A stretch of DNA of 63,936 nucleotides from Thiobacillus sp. GTDB lineage: Bacteria > Pseudomonadota > Gammaproteobacteria > Burkholderiales > Thiobacillaceae. Below, one piece after another: positions 40,402 to 59,143 of this stretch. Where the stretch lies: contig JAIBEI010000026.1 of assembly GCA_019459055.1 (NCBI GenBank), positions 1-63,936 on the forward strand. The letters run 5' to 3'. The position numbers and the translations under genes were made by a program. Positions within the stretch are counted from its first letter, which is position 1, and each line of letters starts with the position of its first letter. Under the pieces are notes generated by a model. The model was given only the letters and a program-made list of their open reading frames with translations. It was not told the origin of the DNA and did no database searches.

Positions 40402-41013
40402 ATGATCGAAAACCAGGAAAGTTTCAACCAAGCCCGTTTCAATCAAACCCTGGCACTGTTCGATGCCGCCAATTCGGAAGACCCCAACCTGGACGAGGGT
40501 CAGCCGAAGGAACTGCTGTATTCCAAACGCATGTCCGACATGATCGGCCGCTTTGCGCCGGACGCATCGGAAGCCGCACAGCTGGCGGTGCGCGCCCAGC
40601 ATATCCAGCGCTGGAAGGTGCCGCGCAACACCTATCCGATGACCAAGGAAGGCTATCACGCATGGCGCACCGGGCTGTATACGTTCCAGGCCGACACCGC
40701 CGGCGATCTGATGCGACAGGCCGGCTATGACGATGCAATGATCGAGCGGGTCAAGAAGGCAGTCGGCAAGCGCGGCATCAAGAGCAACCCGGAAACGCAG
40801 CTGCTGGAGGATATCGCCGATCTGGTCTTCATCGAGCATTACATGCTCGGCTTTGCCAGCAGCAAGCCCGACTACGACGAGGCGAAATGGCTGGAGATCA
40901 TCCGCAAGACGTGGAACAAGATGTCTAAAAGCGCCCAGGACTATGCCCTGTCCGGCAAGATCAAGCTGCCGGAGGCCCTGGTGCCGCTGATCACCAAGGC
41001 AATCAGTCAGTAG
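40402..41013 (+). CDS. DUF4202 domain-containing protein
   Basis: 203 residues from ATG 40402, behind AAGGA. All-helical protein with RFNQTLALFDAANSEDPN, AQHIQRWKVPRNTYPMTKEGY, IADLVFIEHYMLGFASSKPD and a conserved NKMSKSAQDYAL, which matches DUF4202, a family related to HD-type folds but of unknown function. Paired His/Asp in AQHIQRW and FIEHY could bind metal. This is the last clear backbone gene before the accessory region. Confidence 0.8.
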   Translation: MIENQESFNQARFNQTLALFDAANSEDPNLDEGQPKELLYSKRMSDMIGRFAPDASEAAQLAVRAQHIQRWKVPRNTYPMTKEGYHAWRTGLYTFQADTAGDLMRQAGYDDAMIERVKKAVGKRGIKSNPETQLLEDIADLVFIEHYMLGFASSKPDYDEAKWLEIIRKTWNKMSKSAQDYALSGKIKLPEALVPLITKAISQ

Positions 41014-41436
41014 GCGCAGCGGCGCGGGCGAGTACCGACTTCACTCCGCCCACTCCTTCACCCACCCCGCGGTTCCCTTCTGGATGAATTCGATCGGGTA
41101 GCCGTCCGTTATATGGGGTAGCCATTCACTACTATTAGGGGTCCAATAGTCCATTCGCAGTCTCTGTCGGTGACCTTTTCCTTGTGTTGCAGAACATTTA
41201 TACAGGGTAAATCCGCAACTATTAGTAATCACTCTACTAGTTGATGATCACACCTGTTTGGTGGCGAACACAGCACAGTAACGCCGAGCGATGGTGTGAG
41301 GTGTTCACAGGTTTGCCCCCGCTAGTTTTTACGTCCACTTGCGCTTCACGTTGATCAGTCAAGGCTTCGCAAGTTTAATGATTGCTCCCCCGTGTACTGC
41401 AGTCGTTCCAGCAACCTAGTCGGCCATTGCAGACAG
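41014..41436. other. Gene-poor junction between chromosome backbone and accessory island
   Basis: The first ~100 bp are GC-rich and, read on the minus strand from 41115 to 41041, encode TDGYPIEFIQKGTAGWVKEWAE and a stop, resembling the C-terminal end of a lost gene. From about 41117 the DNA becomes abruptly AT-rich and has no gene or clear repeat up to the metallopeptidase stop. This is the best visible candidate for the left edge of the island. No tRNA or direct repeat was recognised. Confidence 0.55.
41041..41115 (-). pseudogene. Possible C-terminal gene remnant at island edge
   Basis: Only the last ~22-25 codons of a reading frame with backbone-like composition remain, ending WVKEWAE. Upstream in the same frame the composition changes and no family is recognised. 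It may be the 3' end of the gene into which the island inserted, or chance. Confidence 0.3.
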
Positions 41437-41859
41437 TCAGGATTTTCCAGTCGATTTCCGCTTCGTACCCATAGTCGTCCTTGGGCATGCTCCGTAGTGG
41501 TCATTCAACGATAAGTTCAGCAGCGTCAGCGTACGCTGCTGCGCCTTGTTGCCCGCGATCTGCTTTAACTCGCCTTCATATGCTTCATATTCGCCCAGAT
41601 GCGCGCGCATCAGGCTTTTCCAAAGTTTTCCGTGGTTGGGAACAGAGAAGTGGAGCAGCTCGTGGACGATCACGTAGTCCCACAGCTCGGATTTCAGGGC
41701 AGGCAGTTCGTCGCTGAAATTCAAATGGCCTGCGGTAGAACACGATGCCCATTTGTTCCTCATCGGCCGTACACCCAACCAGACAATCTTTACGTCCAGC
41801 TTGTCGGCCCATAGCCGGACGCGCTGTTTGAACTGACCTTTGTGATCGATTGCTTTCAT
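41437..41859 (-). CDS. YgjP/WLM-type zinc metallopeptidase (DUF45)
   Basis: 140 residues from ATG 41859 (MKAIDHKGQFKQRVRLWADK), four bases after the hsdR stop. The catalytic zinc motif is HELLHFSVPNHGKLWKSLM: HExxH-type HELLH plus a downstream His in the NHG segment. MRNKWASCSTAGHLNFS is the usual YgjP segment before it. Such short M48/SprT-like peptidases are recurrent neighbours of type I restriction genes, but no role is established. It is the last gene of the defence operon. Confidence 0.85.
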   Translation of the reverse strand: MKAIDHKGQFKQRVRLWADKLDVKIVWLGVRPMRNKWASCSTAGHLNFSDELPALKSELWDYVIVHELLHFSVPNHGKLWKSLMRAHLGEYEAYEGELKQIAGNKAQQRTLTLLNLSLNDHYGACPRTTMGTKRKSTGKS

Positions 41860-41863
41860 TGCG

Positions 41864-44785
41864 CTAAATCCGATCCGCCTTTTCCAGCAGCGTAAACAAC
41901 TCATCCACCATCGCCGTCACCCGGTCCAGGTCCTCCGTTTCCGCGAAGATGGCGAAGGTCACTTTCTTGCGAAGTTCACGGATGGCGTTTTCGCTGCGTT
42001 TCCAGTTCGGAAACTCGGTGAAGGCGTGGCGAATCTTCCGGCTGACCGACTCAGCGTTCTGAATCTTCGCGTCCAGCAGGCTGCGGTAGACAAAATAGGT
42101 CAGGCCATCGAAAGACTTTTCGGCCTGTTCCTTTTTCCTCGTTTCGTTGCCTTCCACCTCACGCAGCAAATCGGCCAGGGCCTCGGCAGTGCTGGTCTGA
42201 CGCTCCTCGAAGCTCTCCTGCACTGCCCTCGCGCGCTCCGCCATGGCGATGAGATAGGGGTCATCGCTACCTTCCTCGGCCAGTTTTTCAATGCTTTTGA
42301 TCAGGTTGATGACTTTGGTGCCATCCCCGCCGCTCTTGTTCTTGATCAGCTCAATGGTATTGCCATCGATCGCGACAATTTCGCCCAGACTGCCCACGCC
42401 ATAACTGCCGACCTGCTGCTGCACCAGATGGTTGGTCTTGGCCTGAAACTCACGGTCGACCATGACAGTTCTGGTGTAGGCCTTCCTGACGACCTGATAG
42501 ATCGCCGATAAGGTTCCATAGTCGCCAATGAACGGGCGCAGGAAGGCATCGGGCGAGATGATCTCATAGAGCATCTCGATCTCTTTATATTCCTTGAAGA
42601 ACTCCTTCCGCCGCTCGGGGTCGCGGAAGTGCTCAATGAGGGTATCGACGTCCTTGTCGTTGAAGTTGCGCTCGATCAGGCCGAGGTAGTCCGGGGCCTT
42701 GGATTCCATCTTGTTCTTGAACAGCACCTTCAGCAGCTTCAAGTCCTTGACGATGGCGTTGATCTCGTCGCTGTCGAAGGCGAGGGCCTTTTCGAGTTTA
42801 TCGAAGATGCCGACGAAATCCAGAACGAAGCCGTGGGGCTTCACCATCTCCTGCGCCTCGTTCTCGTAGGGGCGGTTCACCCGGGCGATGGCCTGCAGCA
42901 GCGTGTGGTCGCGCATCGGCTTGTCGAGATACATGGCGTAGAGCACGGGCGCATCAAAGCCGGTCAGCAATTTTTCAGTGACGATCAATATCTTCGGCTG
43001 CTGGTCGAGCTTGCCGAAGCTCTTGCGGATCTGCCGCTCCTTCTTCGGGTCGAGGTGAAATTCCTTCAGCAGCTTGGAGTCGTTGTTGCTGCCGGTGTAG
43101 ACCACTTCGGAATACTCAGGCGGCAGAAACTGATCGAGCGCATGCTTGTAATGGGCGCAGGCTTCGCGGTCCACGCCGACGAGGAAGGCCTTGTAGCCCA
43201 GCGGCTCGACGTTTTCGCGGTAGTGCTCCGCGACGAATTGCGCCACTTGCTGAATCCGGTCTTTGCCCTTGAGGAAGTTCTTCAGGTTCACCGCCCGTTC
43301 GAGGATTTTGTTCAGCTCCTCGATGTCGGCCACGCCCTCGGCTTCGGCGAGGGAGAGAAATTCCTTGTCCAGCGTCTCGTGCGGCACGAGCATTTCGTTG
43401 GGGGCGAGCTGGTAGTACAGCGGGAGCGTGGTGCCGTCCTCGATGCTGTCGGCGATGGAATACTTGTGCAGGTAGCCCTGGTCATCCTCGCAGCCGAAGG
43501 TCTTGAAGGTACCCTTGCCGTAGACGGTCTTGTCCACTGGGGTGCCAGTGAAGCCGAGGAAGGTCGCGTTCGGCAGGCCGGCCATCAGGAAGTTGCCGAG
43601 GTCGCCGCCGGTGGTGCGGTGGGCTTCGTCGATCAGGACGTAGATGTTCGGCCGCAGGTTCAGGTCCGCCGGCATATCGCGGAACTTGTGGATCATCGTG
43701 ACGATGATGCCCCGGTAGTCGTCGCGCAGCAGCTGGTTGAGCCGGGCGATGCTGCTGGCGTGTTCCAGGTTGCCCAGGCCGAGCGCGGCGAGGTTCTTGA
43801 GCATCTGGTCTTCCAGCTCGTTGCGGTCGATCATCAGCAGGACGGTTGGCTTGTCCGCCCCGGGCGCGCGGAAAAGCCGCTCCGCCGCCTTGATCATGGT
43901 GAAGGTCTTGCCGCTGCCCTGGGTGTGCCAGACGAGGCCGCGCGTGCGCTTGGGATCGAGGGCGCGGCTGACGGCCGCATCCACCGCACCGGTCTGGTGC
44001 TGGCGCAGGATGTATTTGTTGAGTTCCTCGTCCTTCTCGGCGAAGACGATGTAGTCCTTCACGAAGGCGAGCACCTGCGGGATGGCGCAGAAGCTCTTCA
44101 CCTTGGCCTCCAGCTTGCCGACTTCCTCATCCTTCCAGTTGAAGATGTTTCGCCGCACCGTGTTCCAGCTCACCCCGTAGGAAAAGCCGATGGCGTCGGT
44201 GGCGGTGAACAATTGCTGCGACACGAACAGCTCGGGTGTTTCGCGGTGGTAGCGGCGGATCTGGTCCACCCCCAGGGCAATGGCCTCGTCCTTGTTGGCG
44301 TTCTTGCACTCGATCACCAGCACCGGGATGCCGTTGATGAGAAAAACGACATCCTCACGCGTGCCATAGTGGCCGTTGTGAAAGGCCCACTCCTCGGTAA
44401 CCTCAAAAACGTTGTTCGCCGGGTCGCCGTAATTGATCAGGATCAGGTCACGCTCGCGCTTCTCCTCGTGGTCGAAGAACTTGCCCCGGTTGCGCAGGTG
44501 TTCGATGAATTCCCGGTTGCCGTAGATGTCAGTGTGCAGATGGCGGAACTGCCCGAGCAAGGCACCCTCGGCCTCGGCGTAACGCGGGTTGAATTCCCGC
44601 ACCTTGGCGTCGAGCTGGTCGTCGAAGAAGAGCGAGCGGTTTTTGGCGCGGTCGACGGTCGGCACATCCGGATCAAAGCCGCGCCGCCGCTCGGCTTCGT
44701 CGCGGGACAAAAATGTCCAGCCGATGGCCTCGGCGTATTCGAGGATTCGGGCCTGGACGGTTTTGTGTTCGCCGGGTGTGGGCAT
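41864..44785 (-). CDS. hsdR: Type I restriction enzyme R subunit (HsdR)
   Basis: 973 residues. The N-terminal PD-(D/E)XK nuclease carries VIECKNANKDEA, with EDVVFLINGIPVL before it. The SF2 translocase motor follows: Walker A TQGSGKTFTMIKAAERLF, DEAH box VLIDEAHRTTGGDLG, motif III FTGTPVD, motif VI ARVNRPYENE. A helical C-terminal domain contacts the methylase. It cleaves unmodified DNA after translocation. It is separated from its partners hsdS and hsdM by three ABC-3C genes, with only 2 nt to the DUF2326 gene. GC-rich compared with those three genes. Confidence 0.95.
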   Translation of the reverse strand: MPTPGEHKTVQARILEYAEAIGWTFLSRDEAERRRGFDPDVPTVDRAKNRSLFFDDQLDAKVREFNPRYAEAEGALLGQFRHLHTDIYGNREFIEHLRNRGKFFDHEEKRERDLILINYGDPANNVFEVTEEWAFHNGHYGTREDVVFLINGIPVLVIECKNANKDEAIALGVDQIRRYHRETPELFVSQQLFTATDAIGFSYGVSWNTVRRNIFNWKDEEVGKLEAKVKSFCAIPQVLAFVKDYIVFAEKDEELNKYILRQHQTGAVDAAVSRALDPKRTRGLVWHTQGSGKTFTMIKAAERLFRAPGADKPTVLLMIDRNELEDQMLKNLAALGLGNLEHASSIARLNQLLRDDYRGIIVTMIHKFRDMPADLNLRPNIYVLIDEAHRTTGGDLGNFLMAGLPNATFLGFTGTPVDKTVYGKGTFKTFGCEDDQGYLHKYSIADSIEDGTTLPLYYQLAPNEMLVPHETLDKEFLSLAEAEGVADIEELNKILERAVNLKNFLKGKDRIQQVAQFVAEHYRENVEPLGYKAFLVGVDREACAHYKHALDQFLPPEYSEVVYTGSNNDSKLLKEFHLDPKKERQIRKSFGKLDQQPKILIVTEKLLTGFDAPVLYAMYLDKPMRDHTLLQAIARVNRPYENEAQEMVKPHGFVLDFVGIFDKLEKALAFDSDEINAIVKDLKLLKVLFKNKMESKAPDYLGLIERNFNDKDVDTLIEHFRDPERRKEFFKEYKEIEMLYEIISPDAFLRPFIGDYGTLSAIYQVVRKAYTRTVMVDREFQAKTNHLVQQQVGSYGVGSLGEIVAIDGNTIELIKNKSGGDGTKVINLIKSIEKLAEEGSDDPYLIAMAERARAVQESFEERQTSTAEALADLLREVEGNETRKKEQAEKSFDGLTYFVYRSLLDAKIQNAESVSRKIRHAFTEFPNWKRSENAIRELRKKVTFAIFAETEDLDRVTAMVDELFTLLEKADRI

Positions 44786-44787
44786 GG

Positions 44788-46581
44788 CTAGAAGGTTTCA
44801 ACTTTGAACAGTCTTCCATCCTCACCGCCGTCATGGAGCTCCAATACGATCTCATCGGGACTTGGGCAGAGATTGTCCGGATCATCAGCCGTTGGAAGCT
44901 CCTCTTCAATAGCACTGAAGATGTATTGAATCCCATGTTCGGCACATGCGGTTCGAACGACGCTCAAAAGCGCCAGTTTACGCTTCGACTCAAGTTGCTC
45001 GAGTGCGCCGTCGTGGTAAACGAAATGGAAAAACCGATCCTTTGAATAGTTGATCAGGACCGAGAGATCAAAGGCGATGCAAAGAATTTTCCTGAACGAC
45101 GTACCCCGTCGCTCCTGAGTCTCTTCGTCGCTCCCTGAATCAGTGTATTCGGCATGGAAATCAATGTTCCCGCTGTCATTTTGATTCACATAAAGAACTG
45201 CCGTTCGGTGTAGGACATCCTTTATGATTCGGCTGAAAACTCTCTGAATTCCTTTGTAACGTTCCGACCCGTTTGTAATTAGCTCGCCAATTTCAATCGC
45301 GAGCTCTTCTTTCCGGTCCTTCGCGTCCCTCAAACGCTCATTGAAAGCCTTGATCGCATCGAGCTTGGCGACTTTCTCCTCCATGAGGGCGAGATTCGCC
45401 CTGTCGCGATCCAGCTCTTTCTGAAGTCTCTTGAACTTCTCAAGGCTATCCGTCCCGCCGAGGATTTGGAGAATCTCCATCCTCTTTGCCGAAAGCTCGA
45501 ACATTTCAGACGCAAGTGAACTTAGAGACTTTTCCAGTTCGGTTGCCCGTTTCGCGAGTCCTACTTGACGCTCCTCGTGGATCCGTCTGTTGAAGTCGAC
45601 CAGTTCGGAATAATCCCTTGCGAGCTGATCTGGAAACGCGAGTTCCGCTTCCGTGAATATTTGCCGAACATCTTCTAGATTGAAATCGACCTTCGATTCG
45701 AGTCCCTTGCGGACCTGAGCTAAATCGAATTTCGCATTGTAGATGCTGTCATTCAGCTCAGCTATGCGACCCTCAATATCATCGGCAAGCTCTTGATTGA
45801 GGCCTATTTCCTGAGGGTTGAAATCGAACCGGTCAAGCGCAGAGACTTTCGCTGAAACCTCATCCCCTTTTGCCAATATTCGCGCTTGCAGTTTCTCATA
45901 GTCTGAGACCTTCACTGTCACATCGCTCTGCGCTTCGTCGCGTTGACTCTTGATCAGACTCTCTTCGGCATCTGCCTCATACTTTTTAATGATTGCTCTC
46001 TCATCGAAACCCAGAACTCTGGCAACGTAGGGCTTCCAGTCCTTGTGGTTGCCGTTTATGAATTTCCGAAGTTGGAATTCATCCGAATAGTCCTCCTGGC
46101 GCCTCAGAAAATAGCTAAACCCCTTCCGATATGACCAAGGCTTAATTGCTGTCAGCTCAAGGTAGCCGTCCAGCATTCGAACACTGGCTGCCAGCGATAC
46201 AGCAGCATGGTCCCATTTGTCATCCGGTGTGCCGTTGAAGTTGAGGTGCCTTTCCTGATGGCGGACAAAAGCAATTCTCGTGGAATCCCGCACCTCCCGC
46301 CGCACCGTAACAAATTCACCGCTCCCAAGTTCTATTTCCAAAAAAAAGATGAGATCACCAAAGAGGTCGTCTCTTGTCTTTAGAAAATGGCCCTTCGTGC
46401 CGACTGTTTTTAAAAGACAAAAATCGATGACGTCGATAATCAGCGTCTTGCCTAGACAATGACTGCTCTTGTCATCATCAGATGGGTGCTGAATTCGCGC
46501 GACAACTGCATTCAAGTCTTTCCGGAATTTGATCGGCGTGAACACCGAATCGTCATTGGTGTATAAATGGCTGAGCTTCAT
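44788..46581 (-). CDS. ABC-3C system ATPase, DUF2326 domain (SMC/RecN-like)
   Basis: 597 residues. The N-terminal ATPase lobe has a Walker A-like CLGKTLIIDVIDFCL (about 43-57), the form usual in DUF2326 proteins. Long coiled coils follow (about 205-440, for example RATELEKSLSSLASEMFELS). The C-terminal DUF2326 lobe has GTSFRKILCIAFDLSVL, then FHFVYHDGALEQLE and a signature-like IQYIFSAIEEELP. In ABC-3C systems this ATPase senses or loads on nucleic acid and controls the effector encoded in the same operon. 4-nt overlap with the middle component upstream. Markedly AT-richer than hsdR. Confidence 0.85.
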   Translation of the reverse strand: MKLSHLYTNDDSVFTPIKFRKDLNAVVARIQHPSDDDKSSHCLGKTLIIDVIDFCLLKTVGTKGHFLKTRDDLFGDLIFFLEIELGSGEFVTVRREVRDSTRIAFVRHQERHLNFNGTPDDKWDHAAVSLAASVRMLDGYLELTAIKPWSYRKGFSYFLRRQEDYSDEFQLRKFINGNHKDWKPYVARVLGFDERAIIKKYEADAEESLIKSQRDEAQSDVTVKVSDYEKLQARILAKGDEVSAKVSALDRFDFNPQEIGLNQELADDIEGRIAELNDSIYNAKFDLAQVRKGLESKVDFNLEDVRQIFTEAELAFPDQLARDYSELVDFNRRIHEERQVGLAKRATELEKSLSSLASEMFELSAKRMEILQILGGTDSLEKFKRLQKELDRDRANLALMEEKVAKLDAIKAFNERLRDAKDRKEELAIEIGELITNGSERYKGIQRVFSRIIKDVLHRTAVLYVNQNDSGNIDFHAEYTDSGSDEETQERRGTSFRKILCIAFDLSVLINYSKDRFFHFVYHDGALEQLESKRKLALLSVVRTACAEHGIQYIFSAIEEELPTADDPDNLCPSPDEIVLELHDGGEDGRLFKVETF

Positions 46582-46826
46582 GGTGCCTTTTCCGCTTGCA
46601 TGTATTCGAGCGAGTCAGTTTGCGGGTGGTATTCGACGCGACCGAGAAGGAAGATCAAGTGGACCGCGTGCACAAAGTTAACGTCTGCATCTTCTCCGAT
46701 CACGGACAAGCTCGCTCGTAGATCGGCATATGTGCAGACTCGCGCGGATTGAAGTTTCAACAACAGGATGCTGGCTGCGCGAAGAACGCAGGTGTTCAGG
46801 TCCAAATGTTTTGCGGGGCGAATCAT
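46578..46826 (-). CDS. ABC-3C middle component (MC6-like)
   Basis: 82 residues from ATG 46826 (MIRPAKHLDLNTCVLRAASI). A small winged-helix-like protein: helices around LRAASILLLKLQ, TYADLRASLSVI and FVHAVHLIFLLGRVEYHPQ, ending in an acidic tail. This size and start (M-x-x-P-x-KH) are those of ABC-three-component 'middle component 6'. It overlaps the effector stop and the ATPase start by 4 nt each (ATGA both times), so production of all three is tightly coupled. It presumably bridges ATPase and effector. Confidence 0.72.
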   Translation of the reverse strand: MIRPAKHLDLNTCVLRAASILLLKLQSARVCTYADLRASLSVIGEDADVNFVHAVHLIFLLGRVEYHPQTDSLEYMQAEKAP

Positions 46827-47785
46827 TGCGATTTTTGTCCTATATCGCAGTCGCAATACATGTAGTGAACGAAGATCTTGACGAGGCGCCGGTGCGAGGC
46901 TGCCTGCAGTTCGGGACTGCGCTCATGGATCAGCTGATACACGTGCTCAAGCGCCTCATCAAAGGTCTCGAATGAGTTTCTGTGAACAATTAGCTGACCC
47001 TTCAATTCATCCGCGACGGCATGATACTGATCGGCGAGAGCGCCGTTACGTGGGTTTTTCAAGAAAGATTCAATCTGAGTGAACCATGGCAGTGAATCTG
47101 TCTGTATGTAGTCAAAGTATCGACTGCTCAGTTTGTTGATTTTGTTCTTCTTTTCGATGCCCGGGTAGTTTCTGAAATCGTGTTGGCTGTCAAATGCTTG
47201 GGCTATACGGCCCTTTTGTTTGAAGAACTCGGAAACCACTTCACGAATATCGTTCGGCGTGAATAGAATGGGGGAACGAAGTTTATTCAAACCGACGTTA
47301 TGCGCTATCTCTGGGTAATCGAGGAGGAAGTCGTGGATGTCTTTGTTCCCAAGAAGCCACGCTTGTGTCACTCCTGTCTCCGACATGATCTTCGTGGATA
47401 TGATGGTTTCAGCACCGCCGGTTTTCTTCCGATTCGTGAATAACAGATAGTGGGTCACTGATTCTTTGTCCACTTGCTTCTTAATCTTGGGAATTTCTTC
47501 GTTCAGGATCGACGTCTTATTGCTTTCGAAATCGTTGTCGGAGCAAGATTTCGTTGGGTCAGTCGTATGCTTTGCTTGGATTACCGCATTTCCACTTAAT
47601 GGAACCGTATTGCTCGGAAAGCAGTTTGCGGTTCCCACAAATTTTGCGTCTTTCCCGCCATCTCGACCTTTTTCAAACGAGGTCGTTCCTGCGCCAAGAA
47701 TCTTTCTGCAAATCCTTGTTACGAGGTCTTCGAATTCCTCGTCGTTCAATTCATGTAATGGATAGCGCGGCATGAAATTTCTCAA
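46823..47785 (-). CDS. ABC-3C effector: PD-(D/E)XK nuclease with ABC-3C C-terminal domain
   Basis: 320 residues. The N-terminal restriction-endonuclease-like fold (Mrr type) shows E19/D20 in FEDLV, D42 in KGRDGGKD, and Q70-A-K72 in VIQAKH, a Q-containing variant of the ExK half. The C-terminal ~100 residues (SSRYFDYIQTDSLPWFTQIE..., then FDEALEHVYQLI) match the domain that links effectors to ABC-3C ATPases. Predicted to cut DNA when released or activated. Start ATG 47785 overlaps the hsdS stop; Met5 is an alternative start. AT-rich relative to hsdM. Confidence 0.75.
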   Translation of the reverse strand: MRNFMPRYPLHELNDEEFEDLVTRICRKILGAGTTSFEKGRDGGKDAKFVGTANCFPSNTVPLSGNAVIQAKHTTDPTKSCSDNDFESNKTSILNEEIPKIKKQVDKESVTHYLLFTNRKKTGGAETIISTKIMSETGVTQAWLLGNKDIHDFLLDYPEIAHNVGLNKLRSPILFTPNDIREVVSEFFKQKGRIAQAFDSQHDFRNYPGIEKKNKINKLSSRYFDYIQTDSLPWFTQIESFLKNPRNGALADQYHAVADELKGQLIVHRNSFETFDEALEHVYQLIHERSPELQAASHRRLVKIFVHYMYCDCDIGQKSQ

Positions 47786-48948
47786 TTGGCCCTGATTTTC
47801 GCGGTCATCAGTTCGTGAAGGAGGGTGCGCAAGAGGTCTTGGAGAGCGGATTGTTTGCTGGCTGCCGAGTCCTGCTTGTCGTCAAGTATTTGGAATACGG
47901 TAACGATTTGCTTTTGCTCGTCCGTTGATGGGACGGGTATCGGGAGGGTCTTTAAGAATCCGCATGTCAGCGCTCCTTTCGTGCTTCCCCCGCCGAGGGC
48001 GATGGTGCGGAGGTAGTCGTAGCGAGTCTGCATGAACCACAGCACGAAATCAGGAACGATCTTTGACGAGTGAAACTGGGCGTAGGCGAGATGTTGATTG
48101 ATGCAGGTCTCAATCCGTGTAATCGCTGAGTTGCCGAGTGTCTTTCCTTGGCCAGTGATTGCGATGAGAAGGCTGTTCGGTGCGACTTTTGGAAGGTGGC
48201 ATTCCTTGGCCGCTTGAGGTGTGACGAATTGTTCAGCTTCTGTGATAAAGCGGTCGTGGATTTTTGCGCTGTTCAACCACGGGATGGTTCCGCCCTCCCA
48301 ATAGGCTTCGTTCGCTCGTTTCGGAGTTGATCCGTTTCCAACTTTGGCGAGTGATCCCAACTCCACCACCTCCCAGCTTTCCGGGACGGATCCGATCTCG
48401 GTTTGTTTTTGGGATTCGTTGCGGAGGCCCTCGGTGAAGAGCTTGTGCATGAGCGCCTTTTTCAGCTCGGTGGTGGTCTGAATGATCCGCTCTTGCGCTT
48501 CGATCGCCCGCTGCACCGTCGAAAGGATGTGCGCGATCTTCCTCTGCTCGGGAAGCGGTGGGAGCGGAAGGCTGCGCTCGTTGAGAATTGTGAAGTGGCG
48601 ATTGTAGCCGCGACTGGGAATCTCCAATGCCAACAGAGCAAAGTAGTAGAACCTAGCGTCGTAGAGCTTCTTGTTCGGCAGGAGAACCTTGGTCCCGTCA
48701 GCGCCAAGGACGAATGGAAAGTCTACGTATTTGAAGCAGCGTGTGTGGTCGCCGAAAATGATTAGAGGCAGATCGAAGTCGATGATCTTGCTTTCATCAT
48801 CACAGTAACCGGCAACGAACTTCTGGCCTTGGTCCACCACCGGGAAGCGACCAACCTCCGCGATGTCCTTTGCGGGAATTTGGTTCTGCCTGCCTACTTT
48901 GTTCTTAATGAACGAATCGGGCACGGCGCATGTTTCCCATTCGTTCAT
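47782..48948 (-). CDS. hsdS: Type I restriction-modification specificity subunit (HsdS)
   Basis: 388 residues with two target-recognition domains and conserved helices. TRD1 covers about 1-125; the central conserved region begins LPLPPLPEQRKIAHILSTVQ and runs as a coiled coil to KALMHKLFTEGLR; TRD2 (about 190-345) contains WEVVELGSLAKVGNGSTPKR and GNGSTPK, then IPVPSTDEQKQIVTVFQIL and the final helix. The two TRDs set the two halves of the bipartite target. It overlaps hsdM (ATGA) upstream and the ABC-3C effector downstream. The target sequence cannot be predicted. Confidence 0.93.
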   Translation of the reverse strand: MNEWETCAVPDSFIKNKVGRQNQIPAKDIAEVGRFPVVDQGQKFVAGYCDDESKIIDFDLPLIIFGDHTRCFKYVDFPFVLGADGTKVLLPNKKLYDARFYYFALLALEIPSRGYNRHFTILNERSLPLPPLPEQRKIAHILSTVQRAIEAQERIIQTTTELKKALMHKLFTEGLRNESQKQTEIGSVPESWEVVELGSLAKVGNGSTPKRANEAYWEGGTIPWLNSAKIHDRFITEAEQFVTPQAAKECHLPKVAPNSLLIAITGQGKTLGNSAITRIETCINQHLAYAQFHSSKIVPDFVLWFMQTRYDYLRTIALGGGSTKGALTCGFLKTLPIPVPSTDEQKQIVTVFQILDDKQDSAASKQSALQDLLRTLLHELMTAKIRAN

Positions 48949-50892: not shown

Positions 50893-51618
50893 TTAGTCGT
50901 CAAGTCGCTCCCGGCCCGCGTCAGGCGTCTGTTCCCACTCGGCCAATTCCCTCGGCAGCGGCGCATTGGCAGTGACCGGCTCGCCCAGGATCTTCCGGAT
51001 CGCTGTGGCAAACCCGATCTTGAAGATCGGACTTCCCTTGTCAGTGAGGATGCGGCCATGCTTGTCCTCCTTCCAGCCTTCTTCCTTCATCAGCTTCTCG
51101 CTGATCGCATGGCGAAGCGCCGCCTTCTCCGTATCTGTAACGCCAAAGTCGGCAGGCAGGTAATCCCCGGAACGAGCCAACTCTGCACGCTCACCGGACT
51201 TGTCGCGGTAGTCGATCACGATATTTGTATGTTGCTTGAGCAGATTCACTTCCCCACGCAGCTTCTTGTTCTCCGCCAGGACTGCGCCCATGACGGAACG
51301 GACGGCCGGGTCGGGAATTCGGTCGAGCACGTCCCACACCAGGTTGTTGGTCGCCTTGCGCACTTTACGGGTCACGCCGCCCGTATGTTCGGCCCACGCC
51401 TTGATCAGCCCCTTGAAGTCATCGCCGGTCTTGTTGTGAATGGTCGATGGTGCCGGGCCACTGCGTCCTTGGGCAATGCGCGAGATCGTCGCCACTGAGA
51501 AGTCCTTGCTGCCCCGCTCGTACTGCTCCCGGCAGATGGCATGAATCAGGTCGAGGTTCTTCTGCTTGCGCGTGTTGGCGTGGGCTTTCAGTTGTTCTAG
51601 CAGTTCGTCGGGATGCAT
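50893..51618 (-). CDS. gmtX: GmtX-like protein of the gamma-mobile-trio
   Basis: 241 residues from ATG 51618, behind AAGGAGC; a GTG at 51624 is an alternative. The N-terminal part (DFSVATISRIAQGRSGPAPS) resembles a helix-turn-helix, as in phage integrase-associated proteins, followed by a helical middle and basic segments. It is the third gene after gmtY and gmtZ with a 2-nt gap. GmtX proteins occur only with the two recombinases and are thought to assist or regulate integration; the biochemical role is not known. Confidence 0.75.
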   Translation of the reverse strand: MHPDELLEQLKAHANTRKQKNLDLIHAICREQYERGSKDFSVATISRIAQGRSGPAPSTIHNKTGDDFKGLIKAWAEHTGGVTRKVRKATNNLVWDVLDRIPDPAVRSVMGAVLAENKKLRGEVNLLKQHTNIVIDYRDKSGERAELARSGDYLPADFGVTDTEKAALRHAISEKLMKEEGWKEDKHGRILTDKGSPIFKIGFATAIRKILGEPVTANAPLPRELAEWEQTPDAGRERLDD

Positions 51619-51620
51619 GG

Positions 51621-54584
51621 TCACGCTCCTTCTTCCATGTAGGCCGGCAGGGATTTCTTGGTCTGCAGATCGCTGAGGATCTGGGTCATCGCCACGCCCT
51701 GGTCGCCTACGCTCTTCAGCGTCGTGATCAGGTCGTCATCCACGATGCCCAGTTCCTTGAGGCGGCCTTGCGCCACAACAAACTCAACGGCGTTTTCGAG
51801 GGAGCCGGCGCGCGACTCGATCAGCTTCATCGTGGCGTTGCCCGCCAGCAGTTGTTGCTCGACGCTGAGCCGGGAGAACAGCAACGGCTTCTTGTTTGCG
51901 TGCAGCAGCGCGTCGAGTAGCTGGGAGCGCCGGATCGCTGGCTGCCGGGCGTCGATCTCGGGATAGATCGTCGCATTGCGGCACTGCACCTCAATCGGGT
52001 GCAGCTCAGATTCGGTGACGGTCAGCGCGGTCTGGATGTCGAACAGCGTGCCGGCTGCGACCAGTTGCAGCCCGTCCTTGGCCGCGTTCTTGTTGATCTG
52101 GATGCAGCGATGGATCAGGCGCTGGATGGCCTGAAGATCGGTGATCCAGCGGTCCAGCGTCTGGGTTTCTGCTTCGAGCAGCGCCGAATGCTTTTCAAGG
52201 TCGACGGCCTCGGTAAAGAGGCGGCCCGTGGCTTCGCACTCCGCGCGGCGCTCTTCCATGGCCGCCACCTGTTCGGTAAAGCTGTTGTAGCGCTCTGCCG
52301 CCAGCATCGCCTGGTAGGCGATGTGGTTGAACTTCGCGTTGAGCGCGTGTAACCAAGCGGGGCCCGTGAGGAAGAACCGGCAGCGGATGCAGTTGCGCTC
52401 ATGGGGATAGCCAGGGACGGGGCCGTAGTCTTTTCGATCCTTTACTTCGCTGATCTTTTTGCCGCCAACGTCGCACATGGCGCAGCCCACCGGACAGAGG
52501 CCCTTGTCATCGAAGACGAAGCCCGCCTCGCTCTTTTGGTTTATGGCCGCCGTGACGCCATCTTGCGAGACGCTGGCAAAGCGCTGGTTGATCTCGTCGC
52601 GCCCATGCCGCATCAGGAATGTCTTGTGGCCCCGCGCTTCGTTTTCGGTCATCTTGTGTTCGGCGTCGGCCATCAGCTTGTTCATGTGGTCGATGCCGAT
52701 CTTGGTGTAGTAGATGGTCTGGATCAGGCCGTGGTGGCCCGCGATCAGCTTGGACACGACCTCGATGGGCAGGCCGCCTTCCATGATCAGGCCGGTGATC
52801 AGCGAGACGCGCAGCGCGTGGAGCGGGAAGTAGGTTCCGTCGCCGTTTGGGTCGACGAGGCGGATCGGATTACCGAGAGCGTCCTTTTCTTCTTTTTGGG
52901 CGAGTTCCGCTTCCAGGCGGCCCAGGAGCTTGTACCAGAGAGTCGACAGCGCACTGTCAGGCACCGGCTTGGCCCTGTCCCGGCCCTCCGCCGCCGCGTT
53001 GCGGAACAGGAAGAAGGCGGGGCTGCGTTCGGCAAGTATCGCGTCGGCCGGGCGCGCGCTGAAATACCGGGCTTCCAGTTCGGTCCACGGCATCGCCGCT
53101 TCGACCGGGTTGTGGCGCTCCTGCCAATTGCGCAACTTTTCCAGCCAGTAGAGCAACTCAATGTTGGTCCACGGGATGACGTAGCCCTTTTTATCCTCAG
53201 GCTTGTTGATGTCGGCGGTCTTGTTGGTATTGATGAAGAACCCTGTCCCTTGCCCGCCGGCGTCCCGGTGGAACACCCCGCGCTGGCAGGGACGCGCTTC
53301 GCTCCCCAAGGTAAACGGCGTGTCGTTGAGCTCGAAACGGCCGCCCTGCGCATCCCAAACGTAGCGCCAAGTATCGCCCTCGCCCGAGTCGAGGAAGCGG
53401 ACCTGGTGAGTGCGCAGCGCAACTTCGAGCTTGACATAGAGCACCACCGCGCGCACCGGGGACCAGATTTCGGTCACGACTTCCGGGAGGTTGTTGTTTT
53501 TTCGTTCCCTCCGGCCCGGTCTGCGTTCGCGCCACGCGCAGTCGGGATCGTCTCGATTGACGAGGGTCGGATCGACGACGAACCAGTCACCACCAGGGCC
53601 GGCCGAATCCGTGGCCACCTGCGCCCATGTCCAGGCTTGGAAGTTCCGCCCCTCGGCCAGCATCTTCCGGAGCTTGCGAATGTAGAGCATCGGGAGGGCG
53701 TTCTTGACCGTCTCGCTGGGCGCGCCGATTCCCGCTACGGACAGGCGCTCGATGGAGTTGTGGAACACGGCCGGCACCACGCGCTCGCCATGCTCGCCCT
53801 CGACGGAGAGCTTTTTCAGAAGCACCCAGTCGATGAAGTCGGCGACATGAGTGTTTTGCTTGATTAGGAGTGCTGTGGGCTTTTCGTTGGCGGCGCCCTT
53901 GGTGGACCAGCGCTTGGCTTTCGTATTCACCAGAGAGTCGATGAACGCCGGCTTGGTTGTCGTTCGTTTCAGGAACTCCAGCGGGTCGCGCGGCAGATCC
54001 TGCGCGATCAGGTAGCGGGTTAAGAACGCCTCCACGGACCTGTTGCGAAACCCTTGATTTTCCCGCACGGTCTGGATGTACTCCGCGGCATACGCCACCC
54101 AGGCCACCATACGCGGATCGATCGTCAGCACATGGCGAAACGTCAGGTCGCCCTGCTTGCCGTGTTTTTTGTAACCCTTGCGCGGAAACGGGTTGCGCCA
54201 CTGGGCGGGAACGACCCGGTACCCGTCGGCATCCGGTGCCGAGAATTTTTCGCGCAAGACCCAGTCGATGAAGTCGCTGACCCAATCGTGCATCTGTTGC
54301 GCATAGGCCTCGCTCACTGAGTCCAGTCCGAGCACAGCCCACAGGTCGGGCACCTGCTTGCCCGCATCCAGCAAGCGACGGGGCGATTTGTCGAGACTCT
54401 GTCCGTGCAGGTAGGTGACGAAGAAGGCAATGAGACCTAACTTCGCGTGCGGCGACCGTTTTGTTAGCGTCCACCATTCAGCCGCCAGACCCTGCCACTC
54501 CTCGAAGGTCGGGTCCAGCGCCAGCAGGAAGCGGAACTCGGGGTCGAATTGCAGGCCCGTGCCTTTGATTTTTGAGCCTGCCAT
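51621..54584 (-). CDS. gmtZ: GmtZ-like large integrase of the gamma-mobile-trio
   Basis: 987 residues. A tyrosine-recombinase core lies near 585-630: R592 in LHALRVSLITGLI, HH617-618 in AGHHGLIQ and Tyr 625/626 in TIYYTKIG, in the right order but with an unusual His pair instead of HxxR. After it is a Cys-rich segment (GLCPVGCAMC, then NCIRCRFF) likely to bind zinc. N- and C-terminal thirds are helical. It begins directly after the gmtY stop with GAGGAGG as RBS. Recognised as the large partner of GmtY in the gamma-mobile-trio set. Confidence 0.78.
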   Translation of the reverse strand: MAGSKIKGTGLQFDPEFRFLLALDPTFEEWQGLAAEWWTLTKRSPHAKLGLIAFFVTYLHGQSLDKSPRRLLDAGKQVPDLWAVLGLDSVSEAYAQQMHDWVSDFIDWVLREKFSAPDADGYRVVPAQWRNPFPRKGYKKHGKQGDLTFRHVLTIDPRMVAWVAYAAEYIQTVRENQGFRNRSVEAFLTRYLIAQDLPRDPLEFLKRTTTKPAFIDSLVNTKAKRWSTKGAANEKPTALLIKQNTHVADFIDWVLLKKLSVEGEHGERVVPAVFHNSIERLSVAGIGAPSETVKNALPMLYIRKLRKMLAEGRNFQAWTWAQVATDSAGPGGDWFVVDPTLVNRDDPDCAWRERRPGRRERKNNNLPEVVTEIWSPVRAVVLYVKLEVALRTHQVRFLDSGEGDTWRYVWDAQGGRFELNDTPFTLGSEARPCQRGVFHRDAGGQGTGFFINTNKTADINKPEDKKGYVIPWTNIELLYWLEKLRNWQERHNPVEAAMPWTELEARYFSARPADAILAERSPAFFLFRNAAAEGRDRAKPVPDSALSTLWYKLLGRLEAELAQKEEKDALGNPIRLVDPNGDGTYFPLHALRVSLITGLIMEGGLPIEVVSKLIAGHHGLIQTIYYTKIGIDHMNKLMADAEHKMTENEARGHKTFLMRHGRDEINQRFASVSQDGVTAAINQKSEAGFVFDDKGLCPVGCAMCDVGGKKISEVKDRKDYGPVPGYPHERNCIRCRFFLTGPAWLHALNAKFNHIAYQAMLAAERYNSFTEQVAAMEERRAECEATGRLFTEAVDLEKHSALLEAETQTLDRWITDLQAIQRLIHRCIQINKNAAKDGLQLVAAGTLFDIQTALTVTESELHPIEVQCRNATIYPEIDARQPAIRRSQLLDALLHANKKPLLFSRLSVEQQLLAGNATMKLIESRAGSLENAVEFVVAQGRLKELGIVDDDLITTLKSVGDQGVAMTQILSDLQTKKSLPAYMEEGA

Positions 54585-56054
54585 TTACGGCCTCCTCAGT
54601 TTTGGGTTGGGGCCGGTCAGGAGGCCCAATGGGTCGATATCCTCGAAGCCATAGCTTGAGAAGTCGGGCCGCGCCAATGGCGTGCCGGACCCCATCCGTT
54701 GCGAGGCGGCTTCGATCATTCGGTTGACCTTCTGCATGTCCGGTTCGGTGTAGACCACCTGCGATTCGAGCGACTTGTGGTGCAGCGCCTTCTTGCGGGC
54801 GAGCGGGTCAAGCTCGTAGTCGGTGATCCGCTGACCATAGCCATGGCGATGGCCGTGCACACTGGTGCCGAGCATCTTGGCGACGACCAAGCCGATGCGT
54901 TCCACCGCGCGGGCGTGCTGCCCCATAAAGTCGTTGATGGCGTAGGGCTTGCCGGTCACGGTGACGAAGGCAAACGGGTGGTCGCAACGCAGGCGCGAGC
55001 GCTGCGCCATATAGAGCACCCACAATTTCATGAACAACTCCCCGGCCCAAGTCGGGCACCAGAACACTGGCATGAATTTCCCCTCGGCCTCGACCACGTT
55101 GTCCTTCCAGCCGGCATGCATCGCCGCCGTCGAGTAATACAGGTTGCGGGGTGCCAGACCATGCTTGCCCTTGAGGTAGGCTGCGCGGTTGCACTCGATC
55201 GGCTTGCCCTTGGCATCAAGCCAGTCCGGCGGGGCCAGTCCTTCTTCGGGATGGAAGACGCGCACATAGGCGCGTTCGGGATGGTACGGGTCGGGCACCA
55301 CGTCATGGACGAACAAGTGGAACGGCTCGCTGACGCGCAGGCCGCCAAAGTTCATCAGCATGGTGATCAGGATATCGCGGAGGTTCAGTCGCTCTTCCAG
55401 CCGCGGGCTGTTCTGCTTGCCAGGCACGATGAAACCCTTGAACAACAGGTCTTCGATGCGATCCTGAGGGAAGTGCTTCACGGCGCCCCGGTCCACGACG
55501 GGAGTTTTCTTGACCAGGGTTTGGCGTGCGCGCTTGTTTTGCAACGCGGCCGCGTCGTAGTCGACCGAATGGGAGAAGATCGAATGGTTCCGCCGTTTTT
55601 CCCAGGCAGCCCAAGCCAGTAGTTCCTCGCTCTTGGTGGCTTCGCGCCATGGATTGAGGGGTTGCGTCTGCTGTTGCTTGGCCATCCAGTCGGAGAACTC
55701 CGAGAGAAGGTTGGTGAGCTGCCGGATCAGCGGCGTGTTCTTTCCCATCCAGTACAGTTGGCCAGGATCGTGCCCTTCGCCATCAGCGGTGCCGGTGTAG
55801 AGGCGTGCGACGAAGGACTCGAACAAGTCTTCTGGCCGACTGAAATGCTGGTGGTTGGCGCTCATGTAGTCGAGTAGCAGCCCTACGGCCTGGACAAGCT
55901 TCTGCTTCCAGCTTGCGCTCTTGAAGCGTGCCTTCTTGAGCATGTAATCCACGAGCGGCGTGAGCACGCCATACTCGGTCAGGATCACAGGGATTTCGGC
56001 ATAGTGACCATGGCTGTCCTTGTACACACGGGCGCGAACGGTGACGTGGTCCAT
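54585..56054 (-). CDS. gmtY: GmtY-like tyrosine recombinase of the gamma-mobile-trio
   Basis: 489 residues. Catalytic residues of a tyrosine recombinase are present: R240 in NFGGLRVSEPF, H400-GH-R403-H404, a second His in LHHKSLESQ and Tyr435 in VVYTEPD. The N-terminal half (about 40-190) fits a SAM-like core-binding domain. It is expected to cut and rejoin the element's ends. Start ATG 56054 follows GGAGGG and overlaps the stop of a 39-codon ORF as TGATG. It is followed immediately by gmtZ and gmtX, forming one operon. Confidence 0.85.
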   Translation of the reverse strand: MDHVTVRARVYKDSHGHYAEIPVILTEYGVLTPLVDYMLKKARFKSASWKQKLVQAVGLLLDYMSANHQHFSRPEDLFESFVARLYTGTADGEGHDPGQLYWMGKNTPLIRQLTNLLSEFSDWMAKQQQTQPLNPWREATKSEELLAWAAWEKRRNHSIFSHSVDYDAAALQNKRARQTLVKKTPVVDRGAVKHFPQDRIEDLLFKGFIVPGKQNSPRLEERLNLRDILITMLMNFGGLRVSEPFHLFVHDVVPDPYHPERAYVRVFHPEEGLAPPDWLDAKGKPIECNRAAYLKGKHGLAPRNLYYSTAAMHAGWKDNVVEAEGKFMPVFWCPTWAGELFMKLWVLYMAQRSRLRCDHPFAFVTVTGKPYAINDFMGQHARAVERIGLVVAKMLGTSVHGHRHGYGQRITDYELDPLARKKALHHKSLESQVVYTEPDMQKVNRMIEAASQRMGSGTPLARPDFSSYGFEDIDPLGLLTGPNPKLRRP

Positions 56055-56898: not shown

Positions 56899-57348
56899 CT
56901 AGTAAAAGAACTCAGGAATGCCCAGAAACGGACCCGCTCCCCTTTGGTTGAGAAAAACGCATACATGAAGGAGCAGATGCACTGACGGCTCGAACGATCG
57001 CGGCCCCACTACGCGATAGAGGGAGTTCTCCGTATGCACGAGGCCTGTGTCAAGGTCGATCGCCTTTACCGTCGAGGACATCCAGGATTGCCCAGTTCCT
57101 TCCACACCCCCCAGCAACTTCGGAACCGACTGCATCTTTCCGCCGGCCGTTGCGTGCATCATCAGAACGTTCCACCCCTCCAGCGTGTGCCGAACCGGCC
57201 CACCCGATGGAATATCACGCTCCAGTGACTTCATCTCCTCGGCGGTCGCGAAGGCCAGCCGAAACTTGTCTCGGTTAGCCCGGACGATCTCGTCCAGACT
57301 CTGGGGTAGCAGGTCCTGCAGGTGGAAGACTTTCGGATCCTCATTCAT
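56899..57348 (-). CDS. Hypothetical protein
   Basis: 149 residues from ATG 57348 (MNEDPKVFHLQDLLPQSLDE). No transmembrane segment or known motif. It contains a Gly/Thr-rich central part (ATAGGKMQSVPKLLGGVEG) and a hydrophobic C-terminal helix (HLLLHVCVFLNQRG). It follows the 266-residue gene by 30 nt on the same strand, so the two are likely co-transcribed. Codon usage is less GC-biased than the backbone. Confidence 0.5.
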   Translation of the reverse strand: MNEDPKVFHLQDLLPQSLDEIVRANRDKFRLAFATAEEMKSLERDIPSGGPVRHTLEGWNVLMMHATAGGKMQSVPKLLGGVEGTGQSWMSSTVKAIDLDTGLVHTENSLYRVVGPRSFEPSVHLLLHVCVFLNQRGAGPFLGIPEFFY

Positions 57349-57378
57349 TTCGACAGGCCCTAGCGGCAATGCCCGGCA

Positions 57379-58179
57379 TCAGGCAACGTAGCTCACGCCG
57401 CGCTTAGCCAACGCGAAACGTACGGCGTAAGGACAATCCACAGCGCGTGAGGGAGGTAACGGCTGGCCGCCCTCTGCTGCAATCCAGCCGTTCGGGTAGG
57501 AAAACCAGGCTGCGATGGACCATGGGTCTGCATCAGATGCAAACGCCCGGATCACATCAGCAATAACCGGCCAGGGTTTGTAGTCATCGTGCAGTTGATA
57601 CCGTGCGACGTGCTGCTGCCCTTCGTAGCTGACAGCGAAGATCCGGCCCTGCTCGAGCCAGTCGCGGGCCTCCGCACGGATGGCAGACAGCTGTTCCAAG
57701 GTCAGCCACTCGGCCTTAGCGATGATGTCGGCGTGGGTCTCTGCTACCCCAAGCCACTCAAACGCTTGCTGGATGGCGAAGTTCTCGGCCAGCGCGCCGG
57801 AACTGTACTGCAGCGAGTGCAATATGGTCGCTTGTCCGCCATGCGGGTCTGGGCTTAGGCCGTCCGGGTGCAATAGCAGCCAAACCGTAGCTGGCCGGCT
57901 CGTGACAACGATTGACAGCATCCGTCCGCCCGGAGCCTCGCGAGTAGTGATCAGGCGCATTGGTGCGGCGGCAAAATCTTGATGCCCGTCCGGCCTAGCC
58001 ACTTGCGCCGTAAAAGCACACCGGGCGGCTGCATAGAACGCACTATCCGCCGCCTCGATCATCTCCAGTGGCCCGGAATCCCACCAAGTGCCGTCGAAAT
58101 CAGCTGAAGTGCTGTAGTGCGCTCCATTTTGCGCACGCCAGCCTGTGTAAAACCCGACAAGTGAGAAAAGCTCGGTCAT
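57379..58179 (-). CDS. Hypothetical protein
   Basis: 266 residues (MTELFSLVGFYTGWRAQNGA...), soluble, Trp/Ala-rich, with no signal peptide. The C-terminal segment DPWSIAAWFSYPNGWIAAEGG recalls the DUF2384/MbcA-ParS C-terminal pattern of some antitoxins, but the key GGxxP...L spacing is not convincing, so I do not assign it. The start has the GTGTAACT palindrome 43-60 bp upstream, giving likely self-standing regulation. Partner 30 nt downstream is also unknown. Confidence 0.55.
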   Translation of the reverse strand: MTELFSLVGFYTGWRAQNGAHYSTSADFDGTWWDSGPLEMIEAADSAFYAAARCAFTAQVARPDGHQDFAAAPMRLITTREAPGGRMLSIVVTSRPATVWLLLHPDGLSPDPHGGQATILHSLQYSSGALAENFAIQQAFEWLGVAETHADIIAKAEWLTLEQLSAIRAEARDWLEQGRIFAVSYEGQQHVARYQLHDDYKPWPVIADVIRAFASDADPWSIAAWFSYPNGWIAAEGGQPLPPSRAVDCPYAVRFALAKRGVSYVA

Positions 58180-58221
58180 TTACGTAGTCTAGCGAGCCGC
58201 CTGAACCAGCGGGGACCACAT

Positions 58222-58239
58222 GTGTAACTTGAGTTACAG
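58222..58239. promoter_or_regulatory. Operator-like palindrome, copy 2
   Basis: GTGTAACTTGAGTTACAG; TGTAACT and AGTTACA form the arms around a 2-bp centre. Same half-site and length as the palindrome at 56597-56614, and lies 43 bp before the start of the 266-residue gene. A common regulator is likely. Confidence 0.55.
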
Positions 58240-58437
58240 GTTTGGTCATGAAATTATTTTATAAACCCATAGGAGGTCAGCCCGCCTTAATTGGATTTAT
58301 ACAAAGGCCATGTTTACCACTGCTTGGGCACCGAAGAGGCGATGTCGGCCCGGCCATCCCAACTGGCAGGTCCTCGGCCAGAGCGGTCTTACGTCCAGCA
58401 AGGCAGAGTACGTTCATCTGGCATTGTCATAAGTCTC

Positions 58438-58875
58438 TTACCTCAGCTCGATAAATCGCAGCCAGTCGTCAGCGTATACGCAGTTCGTCTCTCCAGAGAT
58501 TACCGGCGCTGTACTGCCCTGCCTTCTCCGGTCAAAAGCAGTTCTAGCAGGTTCCGGAATATCTCCCATGCGTACGTACTGTAGGCCGGTGTCAGAATCC
58601 GTATGGATGGGGACCTCCACTTGTACCGGTCTACGCGGAAGCCGCTCCTGGCCGCTGAGCGTTTTTGCAATCGCCCGCGCGACGAGATCCCACACAGTTA
58701 CCGACCAGCGCGGATATGCCGTGATGTCTGCATGTGCCGGGATAGAGTCGTCTGCTGTCAGTAGGCACTCGTAATCCGCAAGCGCTCCCCCTGCCACATT
58801 GCTGATGTGCATCACTCCAATCTGGCGCTCTACGCCGATCCCGCCGGGGATTATCGATACCGTCACTTTTAGCAT
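58438..58875 (-). CDS. Hypothetical protein
   Basis: 145 residues from ATG 58875 (MLKVTVSIIPGGIGVERQIG). The opening beta-strand with PGG and the sequence IGVMHISNVAGG recall a family of small phage and plasmid proteins of unknown function; I cannot name it. A longer in-frame reading to 59127 lacks a good start. The C-terminus is acidic and Arg-rich. About 260 bp on each side hold no other gene. Confidence 0.5.
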   Translation of the reverse strand: MLKVTVSIIPGGIGVERQIGVMHISNVAGGALADYECLLTADDSIPAHADITAYPRWSVTVWDLVARAIAKTLSGQERLPRRPVQVEVPIHTDSDTGLQYVRMGDIPEPARTAFDRRRQGSTAPVISGETNCVYADDWLRFIELR

Positions 58876-59143
58876 GCTTGGCCTACCTATGTGGACTATG
58901 AACAGACCGCCATCATGCCTAGATTTCTTTTTTAAATCAGCTACATAGTTCTTTAGCAGCGGTATACCTTGATACCTCACTTGGCGGGCAAGTTGAACTG
59001 ACGGGTGAACTACCGTGGCCTGGCAAGAAAAGTACAAACCATGGGGAGGCGGGAAACTGCGTAGGAACGTGCTCGTGACCTGTCGCCATGGCCGGCGAAC
59101 CGACCTCTTGAACGGGTATCCCTGCAAGTTTTACTTGGGATCC

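Follow-up and report, generated by a model that had tools for sequence, protein, structure and literature searches.

A 63,936-nt stretch of Thiobacillus sp. DNA (contig JAIBEI010000026.1, positions 1 to 63,936), referred to as the window, carries a type I restriction-modification (R-M) operon with three genes of an ABC-three-component (ABC-3C) system between hsdS and hsdR. All genes of the operon are located on the minus strand in the order hsdM, hsdS, nuclease, MC8, ATPase, hsdR and a YgjP gene. Domains were assigned to the window genes with Pfam, NCBIfam and PADLOC profiles, applying curated cut-offs where these are given. By Pfam and NCBIfam, the HsdM, HsdS and HsdR domains of a type I R-M system are all present.

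An ABC-3C system packed between hsdS and hsdR had been proposed by an earlier, sequence-only reading of this DNA, and the profile matches bear this out. The nuclease matches CTD12 (PF20279) with an E-value of 2.1e-27 (96.8 bits versus a cut-off of 25), and the middle gene, scanned as a 92-aa open reading frame (ORF, 46578-46856), matches MC8 (PF20295) with an E-value of 2.1e-15 (57 bits versus a cut-off of 25). The ATPase matches DUF2326 above the curated Pfam cut-off (E 2.7e-21). The genes for effector, small middle component and ABC ATPase adjoin one another, and both the effector C-terminal domain and the middle component domain exceed their curated cut-offs. A moderate structural match to ABC-3C was also obtained for the C-terminus of the 46823-47785 product, where the earlier reading had expected it. 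The top PADLOC match of the nuclease, PDC-S73 (E 6.4e-13), lies in its N-terminal half, and the Pfam family Mrr_cat is matched slightly below its cut-off (E 0.0015). Foldseek with the nuclease gave no match at E <= 0.001, and a sequence search of the PDB was uninformative, returning two tektin sequences only (E 0.14 and 0.93) and, in a second search, none.

The ATPase has an SMC/Rad50-like fold with a coiled coil and a P-loop, and its fold matches that of LmuB. Its best PADLOC match is PDC-M68B (E 1.3e-54), LmuB being matched only weakly (E 1.2e-8). Canonical Lamassu, as defined by the PADLOC models, was rejected on this weak LmuB match and the lack of any LmuA match at E <= 0.01. In 37 aligned rows the nuclease residues D38 and K68 are invariant and Q66 is nearly so, and in 28 aligned rows H41, L43, G44 and K45 of the ATPase are invariant. 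The two invariant nuclease residues had been singled out before as D42 and K72, a numbering that shifts when counted from the ATG at 47773. By its domains, the module belongs to the CTD12/MC8/DUF2326 branch of ABC-3C (Lamassu superfamily), with a predicted function.

The genes of the operon are tightly packed. ATGA overlaps are found at three junctions (hsdM/hsdS, nuclease/MC8 and MC8/ATPase), and ATPase and hsdR are separated by a gap of 2 nt, which agrees with the earlier description except at the junction between hsdS and the nuclease gene. There, a TTGA overlap results only with the TTG at 47785 as start codon, whereas the ATG at 47773 leaves a gap of 8 nt. This ATG is found at the same place in two related loci (L010 and L011, described below) and is the probable start, giving a protein of 316 aa. 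One transcript and coupled translation had been called forced; the packing stands, but coupling is inferred from it. The GC content is 0.47-0.53 in the three ABC-3C genes, 0.54 in hsdS and 0.60-0.62 in hsdM and hsdR.

Relatives of the module were searched with the nuclease in genome contigs, resulting in 158 relatives, of which 80 were kept for analysis. Four of the 80 are close: L010 from a Neomarinimicrobiota metagenome-assembled genome (MAG; 90%), L019 from a Planctomycetota MAG (90%), L011 from Puniceicoccaceae K14 (88%) and L012 from an Acidiferrobacteraceae MAG (68%). The gene order of the window, predicted to recur in other genomes, is complete in L010 (hsdM, two extra genes, hsdS, nuclease, MC8, ATPase, hsdR, YgjP). 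Its right half is present in L019, a fragment that begins within the nuclease gene, so that its hsdS is not seen, and runs on through hsdR and YgjP. The YgjP gene trailing hsdR, or homologous DNA, was found in L010 and L019 as well as in two further loci (L131 and L204). For the three ABC-3C genes, the ratio of nonsynonymous to synonymous substitution rates (dN/dS) is 0.04-0.20 in pairs with estimable dS, to which L012 contributes one MC8 pair; pairs with saturated dS, for which only an arbitrary bound is available, were excluded from this range. Because the arrangement is found again in other lineages, with low dN/dS, the position of ABC-3C inside the hsd operon is, judged from these comparisons, not due to chance. 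Between the window and L010, dS amounts to 0.70 for the nuclease, 0.63 for MC8, 1.42 for the ATPase, 1.26 for HsdR and 1.45 for HsdM, and these uneven values suggest that recombination has occurred within the unit.

Hsd genes were searched around the 80 relatives with hidden Markov models (HMMs) built from loci of this analysis (for HsdM from only 4 hits), so that distant Hsd proteins can be missed. Six gave a match: L010, L012 and L019; L017, which has directly ahead of ABC-3C a complete hsd operon whose slot is taken by a Fic gene; L042, where hsdR is 4 kb away on the opposite strand; and L079, with a short hsdS piece upstream. The remaining 74 of the 80 gave no hsd match, although some could have gone unnoticed because the Hsd protein is distant or the contig ends, and with the same caveat there was none at 11 viral-contig loci and none at the five plasmid loci read. 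CTD12 is present in 3 of 398 genomes of the phylum, own genome counted, and the nuclease in 1 of 41 related genomes, which is the own genome. A search of phage records with the ATPase yielded nothing.

Three relatives (L011, L012 and L184) have open ABC-3C ORFs, with hsdM and hsdR gone or reduced to relics. In L012, a 42-residue hsdM tail precedes an open hsdS of 438 aa, and the ATPase gene is followed by an hsdR start of about 35 nt (by eye). A second hsdR start of 28 residues follows 6.8 kb further on; the roughly 6.8 kb between the two copies of the hsdR 5′ end (L012:6157-12924) lie beyond the ABC-3C module. In L011, 31 of 41 nt directly before the nuclease gene match the hsdS 3′ end and spacer of the window (P 3.5e-10 at a per-base chance of 0.28), and nothing is recognisable downstream of the ATPase gene (12 of 30 nt, P 0.11), where the contig ends after 500 nt. 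In L184, one of the DUF2326 loci described below, the HMM scan gave no hsd gene, and the module is surrounded by a 98-nt hsdM 3′ piece (88%), an hsdS end (36 of 41 nt) and an hsdR start (50 of 57 nt). L186, also from the DUF2326 set, shows a weak downstream hsdR relic (12 of 15 nt, P 4e-5, uncorrected for the several lengths tried), and its upstream side failed the relic test (8 of 30 nt).

The hsdS|hsdR slot was also examined from the side of the R-M genes. The window HsdR is matched in 20 of 349 genomes of the order at E <= 1e-100, own genome counted, and the 19 other stretches were compared; L203 and L218 lacked HsdR in the automatic reading, so that L203 was read by hand and L218, with an unreadable hsdR, was omitted. 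L202, L203 and L204 belong to the same hsd subfamily as the window. In L202 (HsdR 94%) the slot is empty, the TAA of hsdS being followed after 2 nt by the ATG of hsdR, and in L203 (HsdR 94%) it holds an Abi_C gene and the Septu genes for PtuA and PtuB. L204 (HsdR 74%) contains a CTD7 effector, MC3, a DUF3732 ATPase, a DUF3800 gene and more, followed by hsdR and YgjP; this cargo is canonical Lamassu by PADLOC (LmuA E 2.6e-43, LmuB E 3.8e-123). A scan of viral contigs with HsdR added a single locus, L131 (HsdR 84%), whose contig begins at a DUF4143 gene, so that hsdS is not seen, with the DUF4143 C-terminus right before hsdR; the same scan with HsdM gave no relative. Thus, in three of these four HsdR-found relatives a gene other than hsdS precedes hsdR, with different cargo each time.

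All 14 of the more distant hsd loci (32-35% identity) have hsdS immediately before hsdR; hsdS of L205 (43%) was not readable. Slot use differs between hsd subfamilies on these counts (3/4 versus 0/14, P 0.005, a small and post hoc comparison). At the DNA level, hsdR of the window shares about 92% identity with hsdR of L202 and of L203, yet the cargo differs, which implies that cargo is turned over faster than hsdR diverges. A segment near the 3′ end of the window hsdS (47798-47844), bordering the slot, is conserved in both. In E. coli genomes, the matches listed (10 of 156 records) cover no more than a conserved stretch of hsdR of about 97 bases.

A third ABC-3C type was found with the ATPase domain. 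DUF2326 occurs in 14 of 398 genomes of the phylum, own genome counted, and in L179 the genes hsdM, hsdS, HNH effector, MC6, DUF2326 ATPase and hsdR are in line, in an hsd operon unrelated to that of the window. The HNH effector matches PDC-M68A (E 3.4e-83), and CTD10 below its cut-off. L183 is a decayed copy of this type of locus with other genes inserted, L180 has an HsdR-like piece upstream, and the remaining 8 of the 13 other DUF2326 loci gave no hsd match in the HMM scan. The HsdS of L179 (L179:9896-11617) carries a fused N-terminal nucleotidyltransferase-like domain.

Taken together, the hsd operon looks like a carrier of exchangeable immune cassettes. A second variable slot of the same operon was noticed at the hsdM|hsdS junction, with DUF4062, HATPase_c_4 and RhuM genes (L010:4297-5824, L203:3647-8397, L202:10273-11340). 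In a distant hsd subfamily, hsdM and hsdS are separated by a complete Gabija pair, GajA and GajB (L209:4286-7863); L219 resembles it, judged from sequence starts only.

Domains, gene order, recurrence, variable slot contents and ABC-3C ORFs that stay open without hsdM and hsdR can be read directly from these loci. They are best explained by an autonomous ABC-3C module of the Lamassu superfamily that occupies the hsdS|hsdR slot and acts beside restriction (rough probability 0.72). We infer a defence role, trigger, nuclease release, shared transcript and exchange route as follows. A dimer of the DUF2326 ATPase together with MC8 would keep the CTD12 nuclease inactive until DNA ends, or abnormal structures in the DNA of a replicating phage or plasmid, are encountered. 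An ATP-dependent change would then release the nuclease, so that DNA is cut and the infection aborted. R-M and ABC-3C are probably on one transcript and would form two layers, and slot contents are swapped between operons, perhaps through recombination at the conserved 3′ end of hsdS and 5′ end of hsdR. Among Lamassu entries in the PDB, titles refer to a state with the nuclease sequestered and to one bound to DNA. A 2023 review includes ABC-3C in the Lamassu superfamily; it regards the SMC-like protein as the likely sensor and the variable C-terminus of the effector as a possible docking part (PMC10586767). According to a 2026 review, structural analyses of Lamassu suggest DNA-end binding (PMC12904381).

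A tentative alternative, compatible with autonomy, is that the slot is a tolerant insertion point whose contents share expression and transfer with the R-M genes and have no functional relation to them. The diversity of cargo in one slot, empty included, and the loss of R-M genes around the module point this way. Against this alternative speak two other ABC-3C types found in this slot, of which one belongs to an unrelated hsd operon, and the 14 insert-free distant loci, which make slot use subfamily-dependent. Moreover, the whole cluster around TgvAB is 10- to 100-fold more protective against several phages than tgvAB alone (PMC11411939, PMC12409362). R-M and ABC-3C may also cooperate.

One form of cooperation, which appears improbable, is a second strike in which ends made by HsdR are sensed by the Rad50-like ATPase and the nuclease attacks the cut genome or the cell. 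Type I enzymes do cut DNA, and several slot cargoes are ATPase-nuclease systems. The ATPase resembles Rad50 and LmuB, and the structures of Lamassu suggest DNA-end binding (PMC12904381). Solitary homologues would, however, need another trigger, breaks in host DNA would set off the system too, and a dependence on HsdR has no sign in the present data. Equally doubtful is the broader version of a two-stage machine, in which a restriction cut triggers the slot system and the slot is selected for pairing the cut with ATPase-nuclease cargo (three ABC-3C/Lamassu types, and also Septu) that detects ends or abnormal DNA.

The prrC gene is positioned between hsdS and hsdR, and the ABC-3C module sits there as well, in a single gene string. 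Embedded in a type IC locus, PrrC becomes active once EcoprrI is inhibited by Stp of phage T4 (PMC2610378, PMC12707154). A guard of this type, in which the R-M complex silences the ABC-3C nuclease until phage antirestriction blocks R-M and frees it, is highly unlikely because the module stays open without hsdM and hsdR; PrrC orthologues are reported to be invariably R-M-linked, as the module is not, ATPase and nuclease do not share one polypeptide, and several ABC-3C types plus Septu in the same slot would make a specific R-M interface improbable. The earlier suggestion that the module senses R-M failure is likewise not supported, given the three loci with hsdM/hsdR lost or relics and the 74 homologues without hsd match in the HMM scan.

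The hsd operon is probably itself the cargo of a gamma-mobile-trio (GMT) island; gmtX, gmtZ and gmtY, all above curated cut-offs, lie upstream of hsdM (Table 1). GMT is reportedly the subject of a study by Mahata et al. in 2024. On the left, the synteny with ten same-genus stretches ends exactly at 41108 in five (L152, L153, L158, L159, L160), at 41106 in L156 and at 41000-41010 in four. The gene split here, which we take to be gloA (lactoylglutathione lyase), is an intact ORF in L152, and its remainder and flank were found on contig C32 of the same genome. The island extends beyond the window end, and its right end is on another contig. A repeat scan revealed no attachment repeat, the junctions showing only a short imperfect repeat. 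By tblastn, gmtX/Y/Z homologues are absent from 121 related loci, GMT carriage being seen in the window only, which implies that the hsd unit also moves without GMT genes nearby. Further island genes include an FRG-domain gene (62599-63819, E 1.3e-8) and the adjoining 61934-62524, without Pfam match and HEPN-like by eye, both possible further defence genes. A Nitroreductase-family gene of 582 aa (59144-60892) is also on the island; of its neighbours in 56899-59127, the three that were tested gave no Pfam match.

Table 1. Features of the hsd operon and the surrounding island in the window.
Feature	Position	Strand	Basis
YgjP-like metallopeptidase gene	41437..41904	-	Pfam
hsdR, type I restriction subunit, 973 aa	41864..44785	-	TIGR00348 E 5.1e-142
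ABC-3C ATPase, DUF2326, SMC/Rad50/LmuB-like with coiled coil, 597 aa	44788..46581	-	Pfam, PADLOC, fold match
ABC-3C middle component MC8, 82 aa	46578..46826	-	Pfam PF20295
ABC-3C effector, PD-(D/E)XK nuclease domain and CTD12	46823..47785	-	Pfam, alignment, structure comparison
hsdS, specificity subunit, 388 aa	47782..48948	-	Pfam Methylase_S
hsdM, type I DNA methyltransferase, 518 aa	48945..50501	-	N6_Mtase E 3.8e-89, HsdM_N E 8.3e-20
gmtX of mobile island	50893..51624	-	NF040692 E 6.8e-71, above cut-off
gmtZ integrase	51621..54584	-	NF047926 E 2.5e-266, above cut-off
gmtY recombinase	54585..56054	-	NF040693 E 1.2e-158, above cut-off
Left island junction, 3′ part of putative gloA	41099..41108	.	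synteny with same-genus stretches

Embedded defences are reportedly the subject of a study by Payne et al. in 2024. PrrC, RloC, RloF, TgvAB and DarTG2 have been described within type I loci or in linkage with them (PMC2610378, PMC12707154, PMC11411939, PMC12409362, PMC12255303). The closest layout is the RRDM island of enteropathogenic E. coli (RptR-RMS-DarTG2-M48), which likewise has defence genes between hsdS and hsdR, seven ORFs and a metallopeptidase gene downstream, M48-type in RRDM and YgjP in the window; its site is called a potential recombination hotspot by the authors (PMC12255303). Its cargo is DarTG2, whereas that of the window is ABC-3C, and it is led by the repressor gene rptR (PMC12255303), for which the window was not searched. 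TgvAB of V. cholerae pathogenicity island VPI-2 also lies within a type I R-M cluster and consists of two genes, but it is a GmrSD-like type IV enzyme (PMC11411939, PMC12409362).

PrrC in EcoprrI shares with the window an ABC-ATPase-linked nuclease gene inside a type I R-M locus, and RloC, rarely linked to type I R-M, a Rad50-like coiled-coil insert. Both are single polypeptides acting as tRNA nucleases, in contrast to the three proteins with a PD-(D/E)XK domain in the window (PMC2610378, PMC12707154). With Lamassu, DdmABC and other members of the ABC-3C superfamily the module shares the plan of an effector with a C-terminal domain, a middle component and an SMC-like ATPase (PMC10586767), and with Lamassu also the LmuB-like fold; it differs in its CTD12/MC8/DUF2326 branch and in PDC-M68B as best PADLOC match.

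Among the papers listed on ABC-3C, type I restriction, hsdS/hsdR embedding and Lamassu, no title or abstract opening describes an ABC-3C in the hsdS|hsdR slot. The sequence-only reading had suggested an undescribed combined locus, which these listings support for this cargo but not for the slot, other defence genes in it having been described, one set with a downstream metallopeptidase. Within one comparison set, the hsd backbone of a type I R-M operon is retained, and complete multi-gene immune systems are gained and lost at a single junction. This makes the slot worth searching for new systems, and cooperation versus mere co-travel of R-M and an SMC-like sensor becomes testable. Defence genes in the slot were already known from PrrC, TgvAB and DarTG2; the new part is its use by three ABC-3C types.

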